A DNA stretch of 64,000 nt, taken from Actinokineospora diospyrosa. Its GTDB lineage: Bacteria; Actinomycetota; Actinomycetes; Mycobacteriales; Pseudonocardiaceae. Position 1 is the stretch's first letter. Each line of letters starts with the position of its first letter. The stretch covers positions 151,041-215,040 of the forward strand of contig NZ_JAMTCO010000002.1 in the NCBI RefSeq assembly GCF_024171925.1. Direction: 5' to 3'. The notes beneath the pieces are model-generated. The model was given only the letters and a program-made list of their open reading frames with translations. It did not search any database and was not told where the DNA came from. Positions 3,963 through 49,805 of the stretch are shown here, piece after piece. A program made the position numbers and the translations under genes.

Positions 3963-4414
3963 GCGCGGCGGCGGTGACGTTCGCGGTGGTGTTGCCGGGT
4001 TTGTTGGTGGCGCATCACGTCGGTGATCACTGGGTGCAGACCGATTATCAGGCGGCGAACAAGGGTCGTCGGGATCGTCGGGGTCGGGTGGCGTGTCTGG
4101 CGCATGTGGCGTCGTACACCGGTGTCACCGCGGTGACGGTGGCGCTGTTGTGGTGGCGGCTGGGGTTGCCGGTGTCGGTGCTCGGGTTTGTGTTGGGTCA
4201 GTTGGTGAGTGCGGTGACGCACTACTGGGCCGACCGTCGGTTCACGCTGGCGTGGTTGATTCGGGTCACCGGCCGGGCTCGGTTCGCGGGGATGGGCACG
4301 CCTCGTGTGGGGTGCGACGACAACCCGTGTCTCGGCACTGGGGCGTATGCGCTGGATCAGTCGTGGCATCAGGCGTGGTTGTTCGTGGCGGCGTTGTTGA
4401 CGGCGGGGTTGTGA
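3959..4414 (+). CDS. DUF3307-like polytopic membrane protein
   Basis: This encodes 151 residues. Near the N-terminus there is a histidine-rich LVAHHVGDHWVQTDYQAANK motif of the DUF3307 type, followed by two hydrophobic segments (about 55-75 and 75-95), a polar middle with two Cys, and a final hydrophobic helix. It is probably an inner-membrane protein of unknown function; homologues are common on actinomycete mobile elements. The GTG start overlaps the WhiB stop by 4 nt and the stop abuts the next start (TGATG). Confidence 0.65.
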   Translation: MSAAAVTFAVVLPGLLVAHHVGDHWVQTDYQAANKGRRDRRGRVACLAHVASYTGVTAVTVALLWWRLGLPVSVLGFVLGQLVSAVTHYWADRRFTLAWLIRVTGRARFAGMGTPRVGCDDNPCLGTGAYALDQSWHQAWLFVAALLTAGL

Positions 4415-4845
4415 TGGGCGGCCGCCAGTATCCGTGGGTGTTGGCCTCGGTGCCGTGGTCGGATGCCACGGCGTTCACCCGGGGTACGCATCTGGGTTTG
4501 CCGTTGGTGTCATGGGGGATCGCGCCCCGGGACCTGGTGGCCACGCGCCGGCAGCTGCGGGCGATGGGGTTGCGTCCCAACGGCCAGGAACCGGTGGCCT
4601 ATCTGTACTTCTACTGCCGTCGGGCGGGCAAGAAGGTGTTCGCCGAGCTGTTCCTGATCAGCAAATCAGCGCCGCACCGTCCGGCGACACCGGCCCAACA
4701 CACCGCGATCGCCAAGGCCAACCTCGCCAAGCGCATCTGCCGGACCTGTGGGCGCGACGCGGGTTATGTCGTGCCGCTCGAAACCCGCCAGTGCACCGAC
4801 TGCTGGCTCGCTGAACAGTCCACTCCGGAGCCGATGGCGGCCTGA
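4414..4845 (+). CDS. RRQRL-motif zinc-binding protein
   Basis: The product is 143 residues. The central segment RRQLRAMGLRPNGQ is the signature stretch of a small protein family seen on actinomycete mobile elements. The C-terminal part carries a CRTCG...CTDC zinc ribbon at about residues 109-130. The family is usually found between membrane/WhiB genes and transfer genes, as here; its role is unknown, though a nucleic-acid-binding function is plausible from the basic centre and zinc ribbon. ATG 4414 overlaps the preceding stop; GTG 4411 is an alternative one codon earlier. Confidence 0.72.
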   Translation: MGGRQYPWVLASVPWSDATAFTRGTHLGLPLVSWGIAPRDLVATRRQLRAMGLRPNGQEPVAYLYFYCRRAGKKVFAELFLISKSAPHRPATPAQHTAIAKANLAKRICRTCGRDAGYVVPLETRQCTDCWLAEQSTPEPMAA

Positions 4846-4919
4846 CCAGGCCCAGCCTCGGCGTTTCCGGCCGCAGCCCTGGCACAACAGACCGATCACA
4901 TCACACGGAAGGTGAACCG

Positions 4920-5114
4920 ATGAGTCTCTTGAAGAGCGCGGCCCGCGCGTTGACTCCGACGGCGCAGGTGGAGCGTGAGCAGCGGCGCGAGGATTCCCAG
5001 TGCGAGGCCCAGCCCGGGGGTCGGCAGTGCCGCCGGAAGAAGCACCGGCGGGCGGGCGGTAGCTGCGGCAGGCCCGCGTGCGCGGCGTGGGTGTTGCAGC
5101 GCGACGGCGACTGA
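4920..5114 (+). CDS. Small basic hypothetical protein
   Basis: This encodes 64 residues, strongly basic, with a Lys/Arg run (RRKKHRRAGG) and three cysteines. The ATG at 4920 has GGAAGG 8 nt upstream. No fold can be named. Hairpin copy A begins 4 nt after its stop codon, the same placement seen downstream of three other small genes of the element. Confidence 0.5.
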   Translation: MSLLKSAARALTPTAQVEREQRREDSQCEAQPGGRQCRRKKHRRAGGSCGRPACAAWVLQRDGD

Positions 5115-5118
5115 TTCC

Positions 5119-5165
5119 CCCTGGTCAGGCGGTCACTCCGGCAAAGACTGCCCGCCTGGCCAGGG
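5119..5165 (+). repeat. Covarying hairpin repeat, copy A
   Basis: A 14-bp stem has left arm CCCTGGTCAGGCGG (5119-5132) and right arm CCGCCTGGCCAGGG (5152-5165), with one T-G wobble at pair 7. The 19-nt loop is TCACTCCGGCAAAGACTGC. The conserved tail TTCCCAACCACC follows. The copy starts 4 nt after the stop of the small basic gene and ends 37 nt before the Nudix start. There is no U-tract, so it is not a textbook intrinsic terminator. Confidence 0.85.
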
Positions 5166-5202
5166 TTCCCAACCACCACTCCAACCAGAGGAGCAACAAA
5201 CA

Positions 5203-5643
5203 ATGGCGAGCAAGAGCGACGACGTCAAGCTGACCGCCGACGCGGTCGTGTTCGCCCAGAAGGGCGGCGAATGGAACCTCCTGCTGATCCAGCGGCGTTG
5301 GAAGCCGTTCGCGGGTCTCTGGGCCCTGCCCGGCGGCCACATCGAGCCGGGGGAGGACACGCGAATCGCGGCAGAACGAGAGCTGAAGGAGGAGACCGGG
5401 ATCATCCTGCCTCGCACCGCGGTGCGGGTCGGCGTGTACAACGCGCCCGGGCGTGACCCACGTGGCCGCTACGAGACCCATGCGTACGCGGCGAAGTTGA
5501 ACACCATGCCGGCCCCGGTCGCGGCGGACGACGCCAAGGCGGCCCGATGGGAGCCGCTGAGCAAGGTCACCGCTTCCTCGCTGGCGTTCGACCACAGCCG
5601 GATCGTGGCTGACGCCATGCGCCGACTCGGCATCCGTACCTGA
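5203..5643 (+). CDS. Nudix hydrolase
   Basis: This encodes 146 residues with a full Nudix box (GHIEPGEDTRIAAERELKEE, about residues 46-65, followed by TGI), which supplies the Mg-binding glutamates for hydrolysis of nucleoside-diphosphate-X substrates. The substrate cannot be deduced. A Nudix protein (Pif/Pra region) is a regular member of AICE backbones and has been linked to control of element excision or exclusion in pSAM2-type elements (known for the family, inferred here). The ATG at 5203 has AGAGGAG 10 nt upstream. It is bounded by hairpin copies A and B. Confidence 0.88.
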   Translation: MASKSDDVKLTADAVVFAQKGGEWNLLLIQRRWKPFAGLWALPGGHIEPGEDTRIAAERELKEETGIILPRTAVRVGVYNAPGRDPRGRYETHAYAAKLNTMPAPVAADDAKAARWEPLSKVTASSLAFDHSRIVADAMRRLGIRT

Positions 5644-5647
5644 TTTC

Positions 5648-5694
5648 CCCTGGCCAGGCGGTCACTCCGGCAAAGACTGCCCGCCTGGCCAGGG
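5648..5694 (+). repeat. Covarying hairpin repeat, copy B
   Basis: A perfect 14-bp stem, CCCTGGCCAGGCGG (5648-5661) with CCGCCTGGCCAGGG (5681-5694), encloses the same 19-nt loop as copy A. Pair 7 is C-G here instead of the T-G wobble of copy A. The tail TTCCCAACCACCA is identical to copy A. It starts 4 nt after the Nudix stop codon. Confidence 0.87.
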
Positions 5695-5733
5695 TTCCCA
5701 ACCACCAGTCACCAAGGACCAGTGGAGACATCA

Positions 5734-5778
5734 ATGCTAGCGATACCGCGCAAGCCCTCCGTGCAGGGTGGGTGGTGA
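5734..5778 (+). CDS. Possible 14-residue leader peptide
   Basis: ATG 5734 with GGAG 7 nt upstream opens a short frame, MLAIPRKPSVQGGW. Its TGA (5776-5778) overlaps the GTG at 5775 of the HExxH gene. This GTGA arrangement matches the start/stop coupling used throughout the element and would deliver ribosomes to the downstream gene, which lacks a clear site of its own. Translation is not proven. Confidence 0.35.
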   Translation: MLAIPRKPSVQGGW

Positions 5779-6278
5779 GGATGCTTGACCTGACCGATGA
5801 GCAGATCAGGGCGGTGCTGGCGCACCACGAGGCCGCACACGCGGTGATCATGGTGCGCGCGGGCGACCAGGTCCGCTCCGTCTGGGTCAGGCGGTCGCTC
5901 GGCGGGTCGTACCGCGGCCGCACCGAGCGGGCGGGGAGATCCCTGCTGGGCCCGGATGAGTGGGCGATCAGCGCGCTCGCCGGTCCCGAGGGCAGCGCAC
6001 TGTGGGCCACCGAGGCACTCGGCATGAGCCTCGGCGCCGCCAGGATCGCCACAGCCCGCACCGGGCGGGGCGACGTCGCCGACGCCCGCGACTACCTGCA
6101 CAGGAAGAACGCCACGCTCTCGATGCCCCAAGCGACTCGGGCCGCGCAGGGCCAGGTCGCGGGGGAGTGGCGCCACATCAAGGCCGTCGCTATGGAGATC
6201 CTCGCCCACGGCCGGGTGCCCGGCGACAAGGTCCGGGCCCTGGCTGGGCCGCCGCGCACCTCGCGAGGCAGGCGATGA
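5775..6278 (+). CDS. HExxH-motif protein (M41/zincin-like), element cargo
   Basis: The product is 167 residues. An HHEAAHAV motif near residue 15 is a zincin-type HExxH followed by a helix; the mid-region LGPDEWAISALAGPEGSAL resembles the helical part of FtsH-type M41 peptidase domains. No AAA domain or membrane segment is present, so it is a stand-alone peptidase-like domain. Whether it cuts peptides is unknown. I chose GTG 5775 because it overlaps the stop of a short upstream frame that has its own ribosome-binding site; GTG 5772 and ATG 5781 are alternatives. The stop overlaps the next start (ATGA). Confidence 0.65.
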   Translation: MRMLDLTDEQIRAVLAHHEAAHAVIMVRAGDQVRSVWVRRSLGGSYRGRTERAGRSLLGPDEWAISALAGPEGSALWATEALGMSLGAARIATARTGRGDVADARDYLHRKNATLSMPQATRAAQGQVAGEWRHIKAVAMEILAHGRVPGDKVRALAGPPRTSRGRR

Positions 6279-6376
6279 CGCCACCGATCACCACCGACGA
6301 CGACTACGACGACCTGTGCGAATGCCGCTGTGAGCGGCTGCCCGGCACTCACACCGCGGGCCAATGCTCGCAATGA
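6275..6376 (+). CDS. 33-residue acidic Cys-rich miniprotein
   Basis: This short coupled frame begins ATGA over the preceding stop. The acidic start DDDYDD is followed by CECRC and a later Cys near the C-terminus (GQCSQ), giving four cysteines in 33 residues, enough for one metal site. The overlapping start and its position between two supported genes argue for translation. Function unknown. Confidence 0.45.
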   Translation: MTPPITTDDDYDDLCECRCERLPGTHTAGQCSQ

Positions 6377-6389
6377 CGAAGGGAAAGTG

Positions 6390-6608
6390 ATGGCCAAGTA
6401 CTCGATCACCGGCAGGAACGACAACGGGAACGTGCACGTCACCCTCAGCGACAACGTGCCTGCGGCACTGCGAGCGGCCGGGGACGAATACGACCGCCTG
6501 AAGGCCAAGGGCAAAGACCCCTCCGGCGCAGTCCGGAAGTTCGTCGCCGCGCTCCGCCGTGCTGGTGCGCACGACGTGGCCGACATGTTCAGGCCCGAGT
6601 ACCAGTAG
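6390..6608 (+). CDS. Small element protein, paralogue of the gene at 6704
   Basis: This encodes 72 residues: a beta-rich N-terminal half (YSITGRNDNGNVHVTL) and a helical C-terminal half with KAKGKDPSGAVRKFVAALRR and a final EYQ. The second half matches the protein encoded at 6704-6925 (AKGKD..AV....A.LRR......YQ), so the two are tandem paralogues. A GAAGGGA site precedes ATG 6390. Hairpin copy C follows 11 nt after the stop. Family not recognised. Confidence 0.6.
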   Translation: MAKYSITGRNDNGNVHVTLSDNVPAALRAAGDEYDRLKAKGKDPSGAVRKFVAALRRAGAHDVADMFRPEYQ

Positions 6609-6619
6609 CCACAGTCCTG

Positions 6620-6666
6620 CCCTGGTCCGGCGGTCACTCCGGCAAAGACTGCCCGCCGGACCAGGG
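6620..6666 (+). repeat. Covarying hairpin repeat, copy C
   Basis: A perfect stem, CCCTGGTCCGGCGG (6620-6633) with CCGCCGGACCAGGG (6653-6666), has the same 19-nt loop as copies A and B. Relative to copy B, pair 7 is T-A instead of C-G and pair 9 is C-G instead of A-T; both sides changed together. The tail has drifted to CTCCCGACCGCC. Confidence 0.87.
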
Positions 6667-6703
6667 CTCCCGACCGCCAACCCAGAACGGACAGAGATCT
6701 CGG

Positions 6704-6925
6704 ATGCCGGGCAGATTCACGCTCAAAGTGCGGATGTGGGCTGGGTACCAGAGCATCGAGATCATCGGTAGGGCGCCCGTGTCACTGGAAGCGCATGTGG
6801 CCAAGGTCAACCGTCTAACGGCCAAGGGCAAGGACAGCTCTCGCGCCGTCGACGCCCTGATCGCTTGGCTACGCCGCCACGGCAGGCCCGGTGAGGCCGC
6901 CTTCATTGCCACCAACTACCAGTAG
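6704..6925 (+). CDS. Small element protein, paralogue of the gene at 6390
   Basis: This encodes 73 residues. The N-terminal half is beta-like (RFTLKVRMWAGYQSIEII); the C-terminal half shares the AKGKD, AVDALIAWLRR and terminal YQ pattern with the product of 6390-6608. Both paralogues are followed within 11 nt by a copy of the conserved hairpin, as if gene and hairpin had been duplicated as a unit. No recognisable catalytic motif. Confidence 0.6.
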   Translation: MPGRFTLKVRMWAGYQSIEIIGRAPVSLEAHVAKVNRLTAKGKDSSRAVDALIAWLRRHGRPGEAAFIATNYQ

Positions 6926-6933
6926 CGAAAGTC

Positions 6934-6979
6934 CCCTGGTCCGGCGTTCACTCCGGCAAGACTGCACGCCGGACCAGGG
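6934..6979 (+). repeat. Covarying hairpin repeat, copy D
   Basis: The stem CCCTGGTCCGGCGT (6934-6947) with ACGCCGGACCAGGG (6966-6979) is perfect. Compared with copy C the loop-closing pair changed from G-C to T-A on both strands. The loop is TCACTCCGGCAAGACTGC, one A shorter than in the others. The tail is TTCCCAACCACC. It lies 8 nt after the stop of the paralogue gene and 33 nt before the spread-protein start. Confidence 0.87.
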
Positions 6980-7012
6980 TTCCCAACCACCAACCAAGGG
7001 AGTGGAACCCCC

Positions 7013-7981
7013 ATGCGCGACTCCGAATCCAGTGGGTCCGTTGTAGACCGACTTGCCACGCAGGCTGCTGAGGCGGCGCAGGTTCGGGCGTTGACCACGC
7101 ACCCGGATGTGGTCGCGTTGCGAGTGGAGAAAGTCCGGGCCCAGGTTGACGTGTTGATGTGGCTGGGGATCGGGCTCGGGTTGGCGTTCACGATGGTCAA
7201 TGTGCAGGTGTTCGCCGCCGCCGGTGCCGCGCTGTTCTCGCTGGCGTGGTGCGCGGCGTGGCTGTTGGACCCGATGGTGTCGCTGGTGTTGATCGCGGTG
7301 CTGCGTGCCGAGCAGATCACCGCCCGGTGGCAGGTCCCGGTCACCGGACCGTGGGCGTGGCGCACCAAGGTGTTCGCGTTCGCCGGCACCTACACGATGA
7401 ACACGTGGTCGTCCTGGGCGCAGCTGCACGCGGCGGGGATCGTGCTGCACTCGGTGCCCCCGGTTCTGGTGCTGGCGGCCGCCGAGGCGGGACCGTACCT
7501 GCGTGACCGGCTGACCGAGGCGGTGCTGCTCGCGGCGCGGTCCCCGCTGCCCAGCCAGTCCACGCCCCCCGTGGTTCCAGCCTCCCCTCACGCCCCAGAG
7601 ACCGTGAGCGGCCCGGCGGATGTCTCCGCCCCGTCGCCGGTGGACGTCTCGCAGGCGGCCCTCACAGCACCCGAGGCTGGAACCGGCGGGGGAGTGGAGC
7701 AGCCTCCCACTATCGTGTCCGCCCCTCGTTCGCAGGCGCGCAGCCCCCGACGCCAGGCCCCGGTGGAGACCGGTCGTAGGCGCCTGCTGTCGGACTTCAC
7801 CGACCAGGCCCGGGCCGCCCTCACGGCGGACACGCACCTGACCCCCGCATGGGTTCGAGCGACCACCGGCTGCTCGCGCAGCGTCTCCACCAAGGTCGCC
7901 GCCGCCCTGCGCGCCGAGCGTGACGCCTCGAACCCCGAAAGCGGGTTGAGCAGCGTCGACACCATCAGGGACGCGGCATGA
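7013..7981 (+). CDS. DUF2637 (SpdB-like) membrane protein
   Basis: This encodes 322 residues. Residues 1-45 are polar, followed by two adjacent hydrophobic spans (about 46-70 and 75-103), a conserved WAWRTKVFAFAGTYTMNTW stretch and a third span near 140-160. This is the DUF2637 layout of Streptomyces SpdB-type proteins, which support intramycelial spread of conjugative elements. The C-terminal half is Pro/Ala-rich and ends in a basic helical domain (LTPAWVRATTGCSRSVSTK) that looks like a small helix-turn-helix. The stop overlaps the start of the translocase gene (ATGA), consistent with joint action in transfer. Confidence 0.78.
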   Translation: MRDSESSGSVVDRLATQAAEAAQVRALTTHPDVVALRVEKVRAQVDVLMWLGIGLGLAFTMVNVQVFAAAGAALFSLAWCAAWLLDPMVSLVLIAVLRAEQITARWQVPVTGPWAWRTKVFAFAGTYTMNTWSSWAQLHAAGIVLHSVPPVLVLAAAEAGPYLRDRLTEAVLLAARSPLPSQSTPPVVPASPHAPETVSGPADVSAPSPVDVSQAALTAPEAGTGGGVEQPPTIVSAPRSQARSPRRQAPVETGRRRLLSDFTDQARAALTADTHLTPAWVRATTGCSRSVSTKVAAALRAERDASNPESGLSSVDTIRDAA

Positions 7982-10248
7982 GCACCCCACGCGAAGACAC
8001 CCACGGCACCCACGATGAGCCGGGGGGCAGGGTGATCCCGCTGCGCCCTGAACCGGTCTCCTCCCCGGACGTCACCCCGCCGCCGGGCACGGCGGTCGAA
8101 CGCGCCGAGATCGCCGCCGAACTGCTCACCCCCGCCGAGTCGGACGCGGTCACCCGCCGTCTCCCGGCAGGCGCTCGACACGCGGGCACGGTGCGACTGC
8201 TGCCCGCACGCACCCTGGCCGCGCTGGGCACGGCGCGGCGCTCCCCCCGAGTCCTGGCGGTGATCCGAGTGAGCGTGGTGACGTTGCAGGGCGGCAGGTC
8301 GTGGGCGGTTCGCGCCTGGGACGCGGGCACCCACGGGGTGTACCGCCGCCAGATCCGAGCGGCGGAAGCCCTCGGCGACCAGGACTTGGTACGCAACTGG
8401 GTCCAGGCCCGTGAAGAGGCCGTCGAGCGGCGCCACGCGCGTCTGATGAACCTGCCGAAGCTCGCGGTCGGGCTGCTCAAGGTCGTGCTCGGCGGCGCCC
8501 TCGGCGTGGTCGTGTTCGTCCTCGTCATCGCGGGCATGGCACAGCTCTCGGGTGCGGGCACCTTCGCCGGGGTCATCGCCGGCGTGCTGGACTTCGTCGG
8601 GTTCCTGTTCTGGCTGATCGCCGTCGCGTGGACCCCGGTGCTGCTCGGCGCCCCGGTGGCGGTGCTCTACGGCGCCTACCGCGAAGGTTCCCGCCGCGCG
8701 GAGCCACCCCAGTGGGTCCGTCCTCCCGAGCGGCGCCGCACCCGCGACGGAGAGATGATCACCCCTTCGGTCGTGGTCACTGCGCTGCGCGACCTCGGGA
8801 TCGGCCCGCTGCGCAAGGCCATCACAGCGATGCCCGACGCCGGGGCGGCCATGCTGGGCCCGATCACCCTCGCCGGGTGCGGTGTCGAGGTCGACGTCCT
8901 GCTCCCCAAAGGCGTGTCCACCAACGAAGTGCAGGGCCGACACCGCAAGCTGGCCGAGAACCTCGACCGCCACCAGCACGAGGTGTTCATCACCATCCCC
9001 ACCGCGGCCCGCACCGTGCGGCTGTGGATCGCCGATTCCGGTGCCCTCGACGAACCGATCGGGCCGTCCCCGCTGGTGATCGACGAGAGCCTGACCGCCG
9101 ACTACTACACCGGCCGCGCCCCCTGGGGCCAGGACCTGCGCGGCGACGCGGCCTCGGTGTCGCTGTTCCAGATGCACCTGCTGATCACCGGACTGTCCAA
9201 TCAGGGCAAAACCGCCGCCCTGCGTGCTCTGGCACTGTGGTTGGCGCAGTGCAAGCACGTCGAGTTCCGCGTGGCCGACCTCAAGGGCGTCGGTGACTGG
9301 CGCATGTTCGACGGCATCGCCACCACCCTCATCCAGGGCCCCACCGACGACCACGTCATCGCCGCCACCGAGATGCTCGAAGCCGCAGTGGCGGAGATGG
9401 ACCGCCGCATCGCAGCCTTGGAGGCATCGGGTGCCACCGACGGCATCACCCGGGACATGGCCTACCGCCCCGGCAGCGGTTTCCACCCGCTCGTGCTGCT
9501 CGTGGACGAAGCCCAGGTGGCGTTCATGTGCCCGGCCATCGGCGACGACAAGCGCCCCTACGGCGGGTCCAAGGCCACCAGCCGCTACTTCATGGCCACC
9601 CGCAAGATCCAGAACCAGGGCCGCGCGGTCAACATCGGGCTCTGGCAAGGCACCCAGGACCCAACCGACCGGAACCTGCCCAAACTGGTCCGTGAAGGCG
9701 CCCACCTGCGCATCTCCCTGGCCCTGGGCACCGAGGAACAAGGCCGCATGGCCCTGGGAGACAAGGCCATCGACAGCGGCGCGGCACCGCACCACCTGCG
9801 CGCCGGACTGGACAAGGGCACCGTCGTGGCCACCGGCCCCGGCTTCACCGTCCCACAGGGACAGTCCTCGATCATCGTGCGAACCCACTTCATCGACGGC
9901 AAGGACAGTGCCGCCCTCGCCGACCGCGCCCGGGCACTGCGCGATGGCCTCACCACCACCGACGGCACCACCGAACCGGCAGCCCCGCTGGACCTGCTCA
10001 CCGACGTCGCCACCGTCCTCAACGGACACCGGCGGATGCGCACCCAGGAAGTCCTGGCAGCCCTCACCGTCCATGACCCGCGCTACCGCACCTGGACCTT
10101 CGCCGACCTCACCAACGCACTCCCCGAGACGGCCAAGCCCTACAAGACCGCCGGACACATGCAAATCAGCGCCGCACGCATCGACGAAGCCGTCACCGAA
10201 CGTGACGAAATCGGCGACATCGACCCCGACGACCAGGGAGACGACTAG
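7978..10248 (+). CDS. FtsK/SpoIIIE-type DNA translocase (TraB-like transfer protein)
   Basis: This encodes 756 residues. Residues about 158-240 contain two to three membrane helices; the motor domain follows with Walker A GLSNQGKT at about 404-411 and Walker B LVLLVDEAQ at about 505-513. A C-terminal winged-helix-like part (residues 670-740) may read DNA, as the gamma domain does in FtsK and TraB. In AICEs a single hexameric motor of this kind moves double-stranded DNA between hyphae, replacing a type IV system. It is coupled to the SpdB-like gene by a 4-nt overlap. Length and motifs are intact. Confidence 0.9.
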   Translation: MSTPREDTHGTHDEPGGRVIPLRPEPVSSPDVTPPPGTAVERAEIAAELLTPAESDAVTRRLPAGARHAGTVRLLPARTLAALGTARRSPRVLAVIRVSVVTLQGGRSWAVRAWDAGTHGVYRRQIRAAEALGDQDLVRNWVQAREEAVERRHARLMNLPKLAVGLLKVVLGGALGVVVFVLVIAGMAQLSGAGTFAGVIAGVLDFVGFLFWLIAVAWTPVLLGAPVAVLYGAYREGSRRAEPPQWVRPPERRRTRDGEMITPSVVVTALRDLGIGPLRKAITAMPDAGAAMLGPITLAGCGVEVDVLLPKGVSTNEVQGRHRKLAENLDRHQHEVFITIPTAARTVRLWIADSGALDEPIGPSPLVIDESLTADYYTGRAPWGQDLRGDAASVSLFQMHLLITGLSNQGKTAALRALALWLAQCKHVEFRVADLKGVGDWRMFDGIATTLIQGPTDDHVIAATEMLEAAVAEMDRRIAALEASGATDGITRDMAYRPGSGFHPLVLLVDEAQVAFMCPAIGDDKRPYGGSKATSRYFMATRKIQNQGRAVNIGLWQGTQDPTDRNLPKLVREGAHLRISLALGTEEQGRMALGDKAIDSGAAPHHLRAGLDKGTVVATGPGFTVPQGQSSIIVRTHFIDGKDSAALADRARALRDGLTTTDGTTEPAAPLDLLTDVATVLNGHRRMRTQEVLAALTVHDPRYRTWTFADLTNALPETAKPYKTAGHMQISAARIDEAVTERDEIGDIDPDDQGDD

Positions 10249-10797: not shown

Positions 10798-11001
10798 ATG
10801 AGCACCAGCAATCAGGCCGGCAACAAGGCCGTGCGCATCACCGTCCGAGTGGAGGGCCGCTGCGGCAACAACCACTTGGTCTCCCACAACCTGATCATCA
10901 ATGTCCCTTCGGGCAGTCGTGGCTTCGCCGACGCCACGACCGACTGCCCCACCTGCAAGTCCAAGGTCGACATGGTCGGCAGCTTCACCACCCCCGCCTG
11001 A
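10798..11001 (+). CDS. Small zinc-ribbon-like hypothetical protein
   Basis: This encodes 67 residues with C-x2-C near the C-terminus (TDCPTCKSK) and one upstream Cys-Gly-His-like cluster (RCGNNH), which together could form a single metal site. The ATG at 10798 has CAGGAG 6 nt upstream. Family not recognised. Confidence 0.5.
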   Translation: MSTSNQAGNKAVRITVRVEGRCGNNHLVSHNLIINVPSGSRGFADATTDCPTCKSKVDMVGSFTTPA

Positions 11002-11048
11002 GTCCGCCACGCGGCTACACCCGCCACTAGGCGAAGTCTGGCTCATCT

Positions 11049-11081
11049 CCGTGCGGGCGGGTACCTCGCCCGCCCGCACGG
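11049..11081 (+). terminator. Strong hairpin before the kinase gene (terminator or attenuator)
   Basis: CGTGCGGGCGGG (11050-11061) pairs perfectly with CCCGCCCGCACG (11069-11080) around the 7-nt loop TACCTCG, with one more C-G pair outside. C-rich and TTT sequence follows. It ends about 20 nt before the first ribosome-binding site of the kinase gene, so it could end the upstream message or limit read-through. Confidence 0.5.
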
Positions 11082-11137
11082 GCCCCCCTTTCCCGCTCTT
11101 GGAGGTTGCCGTGGACGACATACGGAGGGGTACCACC

Positions 11138-11635
11138 ATGCACATCGACCTGCCTGATCACTGTGTCGTGCTCATGGCCGGGGCCAGCGGGGCGGGTAAG
11201 TCCACCCTGGCCCGGGGCATCGCCCGCACCGCGGTCCCTGAGACGGTGATCGAGTCCTACGATCGTTGGCGGCAGCTGCTGACCGGCGACCCGCACGAGC
11301 AGTCGGCCACCCCCGGTGCTGTCGGGGCCGTCCATACGATCCTGGACGCGGCGTGTCTGTCGGGGCGGTTGTCGATGGTGGTGGACGGTACCCACAGCAC
11401 CCCCACCGAACGGGCCGCTGTCCTCGACATCGCCACCCGGCACCAGGTCCCGGTCGTGTTGGTGGCGGTGTTGACGCCACTGCGGGTGTGCCTGGCCCGT
11501 CAGGACAGCCGTGCCCGGCCGGTGCCCGCCGATACCGTGACACGCCAGTTCAGCAACCTCATGGACGGGATCGCCACCGTCCACACCGAGGGATTCGCCG
11601 CCGTGCACCTGACCACCGGGGTCGGTGGGCGATGA
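11138..11635 (+). CDS. P-loop ATPase/kinase (AAA_33, polynucleotide-kinase-like)
   Basis: This encodes 165 residues. Walker A is ASGAGKST at about 17-24; an acidic strand VVDGTHST near residue 87 and a lid segment ARQDSRARPVP follow, as in small kinases related to the 5'-kinase module of polynucleotide kinases. The target could be a nucleotide, nucleic acid end or small molecule. Two starts are possible: ATG 11138 (GGAGGGG upstream, best matching the family N-terminus) or GTG 11111 (GGAGG at ideal distance). The stop overlaps the primase start (ATGA), tying it to replication. Confidence 0.72.
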   Translation: MHIDLPDHCVVLMAGASGAGKSTLARGIARTAVPETVIESYDRWRQLLTGDPHEQSATPGAVGAVHTILDAACLSGRLSMVVDGTHSTPTERAAVLDIATRHQVPVVLVAVLTPLRVCLARQDSRARPVPADTVTRQFSNLMDGIATVHTEGFAAVHLTTGVGGR

Positions 11636-12633: not shown

Positions 12634-12800
12634 CCGCCGCCGCCCGGCAGCTGCCGGAGTTCCTGTTGGGGCCGTACCAGCCCGCGCATCTGCCCACCGC
12701 GCTCGCAGAGTGCTTGGGGCAGGGGTGGTTCGTCGTGTCCGACTGGGACACCGTCACCACCTACGCCATCCGAAACCCCCAGACCACAAAGGGGACGTGA
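12630..12800 (+). CDS. 56-residue hypothetical protein sharing an N-terminal segment with the downstream TGT-like protein
   Basis: ATG 12630 overlaps the primase stop. The protein begins MTAAARQLPEFLLGPYQPAHL and ends in a short acidic/aromatic stretch (GWFVVSDWDTVTTYAI). Residues RQLPEFLLG..QPAHL recur in the protein encoded at 13798, and the underlying 49 nt (12645-12693 versus 13870-13918) differ at only four positions. No domain can be named; after the shared segment the two sequences have nothing in common. Confidence 0.5.
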   Translation: MTAAARQLPEFLLGPYQPAHLPTALAECLGQGWFVVSDWDTVTTYAIRNPQTTKGT

Positions 12801-13797: not shown

Positions 13798-14730
13798 GTG
13801 ATCACCACGACTGATTTGTTCTGTGGGGCCGGGCGATCCGGTCTCGGGGTCGCCGCCGTCACCGGGATCCGGCAGCTGCCGGAGTTCCTGTTAGGGCTGC
13901 ACCAGCCCGCGCACCTGCAGGTGGCCGGGGTGCCCGCGTTCGTGTCCGACACCCGGCTACGCGACCGCAAGAACTTCCCCCGCGCCATCGCCCGGGTCTG
14001 CTACGACTCCGGCGGGTTCTCCGAGCTGAAGAAACACGGCACCTGGACCGTGTCCCCAGCCGAGTACGTGGCCCGGCTCTACCGCTACCGCGACGAAATC
14101 GGCCACATGGGCTGGGCCGCCCCGCAGGACTGGATGTGCGAGCCGTGGATCCTCTCCGGCGGCTGGCACCACGGCCAGCACTACGCCGGAACCCGACTCT
14201 CCGTCACCGCGCACCAGGAACGCACCGTCGACAACTGGGTCACCCTCAACAACCTGGCCCCGGACCTGAACATCATCCCCGTCGTGCAGGGCTGGGACAT
14301 CGGCGAACACGAACGCTGCGCCGACCTGTACTGGACGCGGCACCGCATCGACCTCACCGACACCACCCGATTCCCCCTCATCGGCGTGGGCAGCGTCTGC
14401 CGCCGCCAAGGCACCCACGACGCCGGACACCTACTGCGTCGCCTGCACGCACGCGGCCTGACCCGCCTGCACGGCTTCGGATTCAAAACCCTGGCCTACA
14501 TCCGCCACGCCGACCTCATCACCTCCGGCGACTCCATGGCCTGGTCCGACGACGCCCGCAAAGCCGCCCGCGAACACCCCGGAAACCGACTCACCCTGTG
14601 CGGCACCACCCACCCCAACGGCGCCAAGAACTGCGCCAACTGCCTCCCCTACGCCCAGCAATGGCGCAACCGCTTGCTCACCGCCACCCACAACGCCTGG
14701 CCCGCAAAAACAGCAGCCGCAGCGGCCTGA
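13798..14730 (+). CDS. Queuine tRNA-ribosyltransferase-like protein with a C5-methyltransferase-like N-terminal stub
   Basis: This encodes 310 residues. From about residue 28 (EFLLGLHQPAHL, then FVSDTRL and YDSGGFSEL near 62-70) it follows the TGT-like barrel pattern of DUF7221/DpdA-type proteins, ending in a Cys cluster (LCG...NCANC) expected to bind zinc. Relatives exchange bases in tRNA or DNA; a role in modifying element DNA is plausible but unproven. The first 20 residues, TTDLFCGAGRSGLG, instead look like motif I of DNA cytosine-5 methyltransferases and join the TGT-like part directly. The strong AAGGGAGG site before GTG 13798 shows that the chimeric start is the one used. Confidence 0.68.
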   Translation: MITTTDLFCGAGRSGLGVAAVTGIRQLPEFLLGLHQPAHLQVAGVPAFVSDTRLRDRKNFPRAIARVCYDSGGFSELKKHGTWTVSPAEYVARLYRYRDEIGHMGWAAPQDWMCEPWILSGGWHHGQHYAGTRLSVTAHQERTVDNWVTLNNLAPDLNIIPVVQGWDIGEHERCADLYWTRHRIDLTDTTRFPLIGVGSVCRRQGTHDAGHLLRRLHARGLTRLHGFGFKTLAYIRHADLITSGDSMAWSDDARKAAREHPGNRLTLCGTTHPNGAKNCANCLPYAQQWRNRLLTATHNAWPAKTAAAAA

Positions 14731-48620: not shown

Positions 48621-49805
48621 GTGTTAGGCCGCTCATTCGGTTGGCTGTGGGCCGCGTACGCCGTCAGCGCCTACGGCACCGGCCTCAGCTTCGGCGCCTT
48701 CTCGTTCGTCGCCATCACCGTGCTCAACGCCACCTCCGCCGAGGTGGCGACCCTGTCGTCCGCAGGCCTGGTGATCGGAGCCCTCTTGGCGGTCCCTTTG
48801 GGCCCCTGGATGGAAAGCCGCGCCAAGCGCCCCGTCATGATCGCCATGGACCTGACCCGCTTCGCGGCCCTCTCGTCCATCCCCCTCGCCTACGCCCTGG
48901 ACGCCCTCTCCTACCCCCACCTCCTGCTGATCTCCGTCGTCACCGCGGCGGCCAAGATCGCCTCCTCCGCCGCCAGCGGCGCGCACCTCAGAACCCTTGT
49001 CCCGCCGGACAAACTCCTGCTGGCCACCAGCCGCCTCGAGTCCACTACCTGGTCAGCCACCACAATCGCCCCACCCCTCGGCGGCGCCGCCGTCAGCCTC
49101 TTAGGCCCAGTGATCACGGTTGCCTTGGACGCCGCGAGCTATCTCCTCTCCGCCCTCGGCATCGCCGCGATCAAAGCCCCCGAACCCCCGAAAACCCCCA
49201 CCCGCCAGCGCACCAACCTCATCGAGGGCTGGCGCTACCTCATCACCCACCGCCAGCTCCGCCGGTACTTCCTCAACGCGGTCCTGGTCAACGCCCTGAT
49301 CATGGCCACCGAACCCCTACTGGCCGTCCTGATGCTCTCCCACCTGAACTTCCCCGCCTGGCAATACGCCCTAGCCCTCGCCACCCCTTGCCTCGGCGGC
49401 CTACTAGGTTCCCGCCTAGCCCCCCGCCTGACTTCCCGCTACGGCCAACAAGCGGTCCTCCGAGCCTCCGGAATCGCCCGTAGCTGTTGGCCCCTGTGCC
49501 TCGCCTTCGTCCAGCCAGGCATCCCAGGCCTGGCAATAGTGATCGCCACCCAACTAGCCCTGATCGTCTCCATAAGCATCTTCACCCCCACCCTCTCGGC
49601 CTACCGCCTGACCAACACCACCCCCACCCACCACACCCGCCTCCTCACGGCTTGGGCCATCACCAGCGCTATAGCCACCGCCGCAACCACTGTGCTGTGG
49701 GGCTTCCTGGCGGAACTCACCACCCCGCGCACCGCCATCGCCCTAGCCGGAGCCCTGCTCTTAGCCACGCCCCTTCTCTTGCCGCGTCACAACACCCCTG
49801 ACTAA
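48621..49805 (+). CDS. MFS transporter (exporter type)
   Basis: This encodes 394 residues with about twelve membrane helices and the MFS loop WMESRAKRPVMIAMD between helices 2 and 3; probably an efflux pump of the DHA/MFS_3 type. Codon use differs from its neighbours: three TTA codons (48624, 49101, 49761), many CTA and TTG codons in the second half. The second codon is TTA, so expression may depend on the rare leucyl-tRNA, as with bldA in Streptomyces. GTG 48621 lacks a strong ribosome-binding site. Confidence 0.8.
   Translation: MLGRSFGWLWAAYAVSAYGTGLSFGAFSFVAITVLNATSAEVATLSSAGLVIGALLAVPLGPWMESRAKRPVMIAMDLTRFAALSSIPLAYALDALSYPHLLLISVVTAAAKIASSAASGAHLRTLVPPDKLLLATSRLESTTWSATTIAPPLGGAAVSLLGPVITVALDAASYLLSALGIAAIKAPEPPKTPTRQRTNLIEGWRYLITHRQLRRYFLNAVLVNALIMATEPLLAVLMLSHLNFPAWQYALALATPCLGGLLGSRLAPRLTSRYGQQAVLRASGIARSCWPLCLAFVQPGIPGLAIVIATQLALIVSISIFTPTLSAYRLTNTTPTHHTRLLTAWAITSAIATAATTVLWGFLAELTTPRTAIALAGALLLATPLLLPRHNTPD

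Follow-up and report, generated by a model that had tools for sequence, protein, structure and literature searches.

Constant-loop hairpins with covarying stems and recurrent spacing to stop and start codons in mobile elements of actinobacteria: a candidate cis-acting mRNA signal

The window analysed here is a stretch of 64,000 nucleotides (nt) of Actinokineospora diospyrosa (NZ_JAMTCO010000002.1, positions 151,041-215,040, forward strand), and all coordinates below refer to it. Four intergenic hairpins, A to D, are located on the plus strand of a conjugative integrative element in this window. Hairpin A (5119-5165), with a 14-bp stem and the loop TCACTCCGGCAAAGACTGC, is situated between an open reading frame (ORF) of 64 amino acids (aa; 4920-5114), the TGA stop of which (5112-5114) ends 4 nt 5' of the stem, and a NUDIX gene (5203-5643). 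Its C/A-rich tail, TTCCCAACCACC..., and the Shine-Dalgarno sequence AGAGGAG occupy 5166-5202, and the stem-to-ATG distance (ATG at 5203) is 37 nt. Hairpin B (5648-5694), in which the loop is the same as in A, follows the NUDIX gene, whose TGA stop (5641-5643) also ends 4 nt upstream of the stem; its tail and Shine-Dalgarno sequence AGTGGAGA (5695-5733) place the stem 39 nt from the sequence ATGCTA at 5734. A 14-codon frame, read directly off the sequence, begins there, and its terminal TGA (5776-5778) overlaps the beginning of ORF 5772-6278. Hairpin C (6620-6666), again with the loop of A, lies between two short ORFs. The TAG stop (6606-6608) of the first, ORF 6390-6608, ends 11 nt 5' of the hairpin, and the ATG (6704) of the second, a 73-aa ORF (6704-6925), is 37 nt from the stem, across a drifted tail (6667-6703). 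The TAG stop of this second ORF (6923-6925) ends 8 nt 5' of hairpin D (6934-6979), in which the loop is one A shorter and stem pair 14 is T-A. The tail of D with the Shine-Dalgarno sequence GGGAG (6980-7012) separates the stem by 33 nt from the ATG (7013) of a 322-aa ORF (7013-7981). This ORF, which we take to be SpdB-like, has no Pfam or NCBIfam match and overlaps an FtsK/TraB-type gene (7978-10248). All of these features are on the plus strand.

The loop is identical in hairpins A, B and C, and 100 shuffles of the window gave no match to it at up to three mismatches. The folding z-scores of A, B, C and D were -4.15, -5.42, -5.18 and -4.92, respectively, and for each of the four hairpins none of 200 dinucleotide shuffles reached equal folding. 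These hairpins had been pointed out in a first-pass annotation of the window, the coordinates, strand and loop of which were all accurate. The stem changes it described at pairs 7, 9 and 14 are present, the stop-to-stem gaps, given there as 4-11 nt, were measured as 4, 4, 11 and 8 nt, and the tail TTCCCAACCACC was found 3' of A, B and D and in a drifted form 3' of C. Its general picture, in which the stem drifts while structure and loop are kept, on the strand of the genes and between a stop codon and the next gene, is supported by the results below.

Four copies by themselves are poor evidence for covariation, and the strong evidence comes from relatives. The covariance-model search suggested in the first-pass annotation revealed a large family, extending far beyond the single element in which the hairpins were originally seen. 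With a model built from the four window copies (R1), matches were obtained in 89 of 249 genomes from the host's family (E ≤ 0.01). A second model (R2), built from 48 curated and aligned matches, had hits at E ≤ 0.001 in 197 of 390 genomes of this family, representing 35 of 46 genera and including 9 of 16 genomes in the host's genus. Named carriers include the Saccharopolyspora endophytica plasmid pCM32, Prauserella, Saccharomonospora, Crossiella, Longimycelium and Sciscionella. A third model (R3), built from 27 diverse sequences, gave matches in 35 genomes out of a sample of 394 from the class, host included (E ≤ 0.01), in the families labelled f19, f20, f21 and f29; among 20 R3 loci inspected, one (L204) was without the loop core and one (L194) had a diverged core. 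All these genome counts are approximate, because the models give rough E-values and few candidates are scored when a whole genome is scanned. In the host genome, R3 gave only the four hairpins of the window at E ≤ 1e-8, the next two places having E-values of 5.8 and 8.0. The relatives were found only with covariance models and not through exact loop searches: the loop with at most one mismatch was absent from the other 15 genomes of the genus, and an exact search of viral sequences gave one match, which lay inside a coding region and formed no hairpin. There was no significant match in pIJ101. A match in a Streptomyces alfalfae plasmid (H25/L084) was set aside, being a weak hairpin (24.4 bits) outside the usual context.

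Changes on both sides of a pair are frequent in the aligned relatives. In alignment A3 (48 sequences) they occur at 11 of 14 pairs, in 51 cells compared with 11.8 in shuffles, and in A4 (27 diverse sequences) at 11 of 13 pairs, in 41 cells compared with 7.9. A5, whose 34 distinct matches come mostly from other families, has such changes at 12 of 13 pairs (70 cells; 14.7 in shuffles). This alignment was fitted to the covariance model, which biases it towards the structure, and four doubtful rows that lack the loop core were kept in it: L204, L083:11353, L196:2928 and a duplicate of L197 on the reverse strand. The signal was lost in A3, A4 and A5 when the partner was slid by 1-3 columns. A lack of excess covariation in further copies, named in the first-pass annotation as a result that would speak against a functional hairpin, is thus the opposite of what A3, A4 and A5 contain. 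An alternative pairing, of GGCGG in the left arm with CCGCC in the loop, was dropped because CCGCC persists when the arm is GGCAG, GGTGG or AGCG.

The loop is the constant part of the family. The 151 hairpins collected from 109 loci were reduced to 141 distinct ones by merging ten identical copies. Their loop core is mostly CCGCCAAG, and it is retained while the stem is replaced. Anchoring on AA[GA] was possible for 117 of the 141 hairpins; in these, C, C, G, C and C stand before it in 97, 88, 91, 91 and 98 percent, the AA[GA] itself being fixed by the anchoring procedure; in the remaining 24, CCGCC is mostly retained and the changes lie 3' of it. The Streptomyces-type locus L172 carries two copies having an identical 20-nt loop on different stems, CCCGGTGTGGCGG and CCGAGGGCGGCGG, and stems from other families, including CCCCGGCACAGCG, CCGGGGCGCGGCG and GACGACGGCGG, bear the same type of loop. 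Variants of the core include CCGGCAAA and ACGCCAAT. The latter stands in place of the usual core in plasmids of Streptomyces longwoodensis and Streptomyces sp. NBC_00562; therefore, the core is best given as CGCCAA with the usual flanks C and G.

The form of the hairpin also bears on an attenuator of the intrinsic-terminator kind, which the first-pass annotation had listed among the possible functions. A strong GC-rich stem between genes is what an intrinsic terminator or attenuator would require. The constant loop, of 17-21 nt, and the lack of a T tract do not fit such a signal, and a terminator scan of 4900-7100 found none (1.0 in shuffles). This function is considered very improbable.

The position of the hairpin relative to stop codons was counted for 121 of the 141 distinct hairpins (20 were without a called upstream gene) and that relative to start codons for 130 (11 were without a called downstream gene), with genes called by a simple script using frame and codon bias. 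The stop-to-stem gap was exactly 6 nt in 42 of the 121, after TGA (24), TAG (17) and TAA (1), and behind 24 upstream protein families. Gaps of 0-15 nt were found in 75 hairpins, those 42 among them; when counted by family, 6 nt was the commonest value in the range 0-15 (23 of 41), the uniform expectation being a crude one. The gap from the stem to the next start was 30-46 nt in 97 of 130 hairpins and 36-42 nt in 65 of them. In the R3 set (33 distinct matches), the gap was 6 nt for 12 of the 27 stops called and 34-44 nt for 20 of the 24 starts called. The gene tables of the database agree with the script: the two gaps are 6 and 38 nt in pCM32, 6 and 38 nt in the S. longwoodensis plasmid, and 6 and 37 nt in the NBC_00562 plasmid. 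Between the stem and the Shine-Dalgarno sequence, the tail is composed of 46 percent C, 26 percent A, 14 percent T and 14 percent G.

A stem about 6 nt 3' of a stop codon fits the usual geometry of programmed readthrough and frameshift signals, and the commonest stop gap matches it. In such a case, the downstream start should be in the readthrough frame, and this was so in 10 of 68 cases, 7 of the 10 being open. Stop-codon readthrough was rejected on this count. In addition, all three stop codons are used, and the phage copies described below have no called upstream stop; a readthrough or frameshift signal seems the least probable of the functions discussed here.

It should be mentioned that the gene 3' of the hairpin in the host's family often begins with ATG-NTA, in which the second codon is the rare GTA or CTA (5734-5739 in the window). 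AT[GC]NTA was present within 75 nt in 62 of 89 single-hairpin loci, compared with 117 of 1776 ATG frames preceded by a Shine-Dalgarno sequence in the same loci (the 1776 include them). In L093, L116 and L152, the NTA is retained though the ATG reads ATC.

TraB relatives were detected in 84 of the 109 loci, and in these loci 111 of 113 hairpins are on the TraB strand and 2 are opposite. In 19 of the 109 loci, no TraB, SpdB-like, replication or integrase query matched within the fetched stretch. This strand bias and the tie to stop and start codons speak against a plain REP or MITE repeat, for which the first-pass annotation had expected copies scattered regardless of strand and genes. More than one copy per operon was found in 20 of the 109 loci, with up to six per locus. 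These multiple copies, the shared operon strand and the presence in phages and conjugative elements having few common genes might indicate a transcription signal of the nut/put type, by which RNA polymerase would pass Rho-dependent stops in untranslated operon gaps. For such a signal the distances to start and stop codons are expected to be free, and they are observed to be fixed; we regard this explanation as improbable.

Hairpins of this kind were also found in phages. The pattern of the real loop matched at least 120 viral stretches; among the 120 matches listed, the loop lay within a hairpin scoring at least 8.5 in 51 and at least 10 in 39. Two scrambled loops, used as a control, gave hairpins in 0 of 120 and 1 of 120 viral matches. 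Most of the 51 hairpins among the listed matches belong to one GC-rich phage group and are located 5' of a RuvC-like gene, which was named from its tblastn relatives and has no Pfam match. A second viral pattern, CCGCCAAGCA, gave 26 hairpins in 121 matches, 24 of the 26 with a start codon at 36-39 nt, and a further pattern with a different stem gave 4 in 80. In an alignment of 10 phage sequences, 4 of 12 pairs show double changes and 7 are invariant, a weaker signal in the same direction as in A3 to A5. The closest named full-length relative of the RuvC-like protein (65 percent identity) is from an alphaproteobacterium, Shinella sp. PSBB067. A hairpin with the loop ...ACCGCCAAGCA... is present 5' of the Shinella RuvC-like gene, 36 nt from the ATG; this copy was reached via protein similarity, independently of the loop. 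In the Acidithiobacillus phage AcaML1, which has a relative of the RuvC-like protein, visual inspection of 201 bases about the start of this gene showed no hairpin. The actinobacterial and alphaproteobacterial copies may share descent or a common reader.

The position directly 3' of stop codons, the single-stranded C/A-rich tail and the strong stems might be explained by processing or protection of the message: once an endonuclease had cut in the tail, the hairpin would shield the 3' end of the cistron upstream, uncoupling the decay of the two cistrons, and the loop would mark the cut or the protector. The phage copies are left unexplained by this function, no upstream gene being called in the 14 contigs viewed (of 51). 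The fixed distance to the start codon is left unexplained as well, and a shield has no need of a constant loop. Processing or protection ranks next after the reading preferred below, and we consider it rather unlikely.

The genes that follow the hairpin are diverse. In the window they are the NUDIX gene, short ORFs, and the 322-aa ORF followed by the FtsK/TraB-type gene. Genes of the FtsK/SpoIIIE type are downstream in three loci, with scores above the Pfam cut-off in L200 and L749 and just below it in L769 (22.6 against 24). The downstream gene is RepSA-like in L182 (531 bits; curated cut-off, 700), excisionase-like in L201 (28.3 bits; cut-off, 28.8), and encodes a protein with a DnaB N-terminal domain and DUF3987 in L187. 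Prim-Pol is downstream in L214 and in the S. longwoodensis plasmid, and WhiB in L203. No one downstream or upstream gene is common to all loci.

This diversity bears on a further suggestion of the first-pass annotation, a clt-like recognition site for the transfer motor. As described in PMC3583192, the clt sites of Streptomyces plasmids are single loci with direct repeats, which Tra binds as double-stranded DNA. They resemble the hairpins in being non-coding, in lying near FtsK-type tra genes and in containing inverted repeats. The hairpins differ from clt sites so described in that there are several per element, that they are also present 5' of phage genes and that direct repeats do not define them; no array of short direct repeats was found at the hairpins of the window. 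A clt-like role is not sustained, since genes for replication, excision and regulation as well as phage genes are also found 3' of the hairpin, a locus may contain as many as six copies, and the distance to the start codon is kept.

The spacing is fixed to stops and starts whatever the codon or gene, and the strand is biased; therefore, action as mRNA is favoured over action as DNA. A covarying stem, on the mRNA strand and at a fixed place relative to the gene, is also what is generally found in cis-regulatory mRNA hairpins. The reading that we prefer, and to which we give an even chance, is that of a cis-acting mRNA hairpin, the loop of which is read by a trans-acting factor or by the ribosome and which sets independent initiation of the next gene. 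In operons of mobile elements, the hairpin would form in the sense strand, either in the leader or between two cistrons. Its stem would be a mere holder, for which any GC-rich stem of about 11-14 bp might suffice, and the information would reside in the apical loop and in the placement, typically 6 nt past the stop and about 36-42 nt before the next start. The gap between stem and start would be filled by the C/A-rich, G-poor stretch and the Shine-Dalgarno sequence. With the known sizes of ribosome footprints, a start gap of about 38 nt would place the hairpin at the upstream edge of the 30S subunit initiating the next gene, and with a stop gap of 6 nt, a ribosome terminating on the previous gene would have the stem directly in front of it. 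A trans-acting factor or a part of the ribosome might then read the loop and set how often the next gene starts independently of the previous one. The reader would probably be an RNA-binding protein of the host, because no single element gene is common to all carriers. A small Cys-rich protein and an RRQRL zinc protein were rejected as a common loop-binding factor, since they are not in all carriers.

Several observations weigh against an mRNA hairpin acting on initiation. The spacing is not shared by all hairpins: in 79 of 121 cases the stop gap differs from 6 nt, and a second group is found at about 20-28 nt. Over stem positions 2-10 of 121 hairpins, there are 21 G-U and 20 A-C pairs, and most stems of the RuvC phages contain an A-C pair. 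The loop variant pattern CCGACCAAGAAC gave no hairpin in 110 viral matches, although loops with CCGACC were found in cellular elements. Complementarity to the loop never exceeded 9 nt in the host 23S gene (either strand) or 7 nt in the Escherichia coli 16S and partial 23S genes; no host 16S gene could be located in the assembly. In predicted folding, the Shine-Dalgarno sequence was unpaired to 0.431 with the hairpin and to 0.412 with its letters shuffled (n = 102, p 0.024). Such a small change makes a masking switch unlikely and favours reading of the loop by a trans-acting factor or the ribosome; masking or release of the Shine-Dalgarno sequence was rejected for the smallness of this effect.

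The overall equality of A-C and G-U arises because pair 6 alone holds 16 C-A and one A-C. When pair 6 is omitted, a choice made post hoc, there are 19 G-U and 3 A-C pairs; an earlier, looser count had given 22 and 27, and in A5, from other families, G-U and A-C number 6 and 1. The C-A mismatch at this mid-stem pair (the region of pair 7 in the window) thus recurs in 16 of 121 hairpins, with the other positions favouring G-U, and it may be tolerated or selected. A-C pairs as common as G-U pairs, owing to pair 6, would suit a hairpin of single-stranded DNA, read during replication or transfer by a protein of the element such as a primase, a replication protein or a transfer protein, and some copies are indeed 5' of Prim-Pol, RepSA-like or FtsK/TraB-type genes. 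Against such a DNA site stand the number of copies, as many as six in one locus, the many unrelated genes downstream and a spacing tied to stop and start codons, irrespective of the stop codon used, and it is considered improbable.

Among known systems, the SAS and ESAS sequences of cluster K phages are nearest in kind to the hairpins. Both systems are repeated, on one strand and just 5' of start codons in actinobacterial mobile DNA, and neither has a known function. According to PMC12699233, SAS measures 13 bp and overlaps the ribosome-binding site, and a role in translation initiation is proposed for it. ESAS has inverted repeats of about 17 bp, for which the authors find little support for base-pairing, and its spacer is variable. 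The hairpin family differs from ESAS, as presented there, in that its pairing is strongly supported and its loop is the constant part. The SAS motif GGGATAGGAGCCC was not found near the hairpins; one match with two mismatches was present in the window, at 48771 (2.05 expected by chance).

Phage operator hairpins and nut/put antitermination RNAs are short mRNA hairpins of mobile DNA that are read through the loop by a protein or by polymerase, and each serves one protein or one phage group. The loop described here differs from these in being common to unrelated elements of two phyla, and no common protein was found for it. As a candidate cis-regulatory RNA with covariation, the hairpin is of a kind covered by Rfam, but no Rfam 15 family matched at gathering scores (cmscan) in the window or in 8 phage loci, and a search at lax thresholds gave merely weak matches to CRISPR repeats and microRNAs, the best with an E-value of 0.65. 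A description of the hairpin was not found in the literature searched, where the coverage of subscription papers was thin; hence its unpublished status is unproven.

Several features surround the hairpins in the element. An integrase-like gene (Pfam E 5e-4, under the cut-off) adjoins a tRNA-Leu gene, and no att repeat of 14 nt or more to the tRNA side was found within the window. The 14-codon frame after hairpin B (5734-5778) may encode a leader peptide, or it may represent a coupled start or the frameshifted start of a gene. ORFs 6390-6608 and 6704-6925, which are split by hairpin C, appear to be neighbouring paralogues and have no Pfam or NCBIfam match. The RRQRL-motif zinc-binding protein (NF041638), present in many but not all carriers, is encoded at 4093-4842. 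An AAA_33 or zeta-toxin-like kinase, similar to polynucleotide kinases, is encoded at 10901-11632, and a DpdA-like protein (PF23859, 3e-59), an element-borne 7-deazapurine DNA-modification protein, at 13798-14727. A 50-nt stretch at 12644 is repeated at 13869 with 92 percent identity.

On a wider scale, and more tentatively than the reading of the hairpin as a cis-acting mRNA signal, a shared access code might be proposed: one loop signal, on an arbitrary stem and at a fixed distance to the start, would be used by unrelated conjugative elements, plasmids and phages of Actinobacteria and Alphaproteobacteria because conserved host machinery, either the ribosome or a universal RNA-binding protein, reads it, and mobile DNA would thereby set the translation of its genes. 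If this is true, a single mRNA signal serves mobile elements with hardly any genes in common, which would imply a common reader in their hosts. The free stem and the fixed loop and spacing would make mutational tests simple, and the loop provides a search handle for the annotation of mobile elements. The identity of the reader would then reveal a point of control for the expression of conjugative elements and phages in antibiotic-producing actinomycetes and in alphaproteobacteria.

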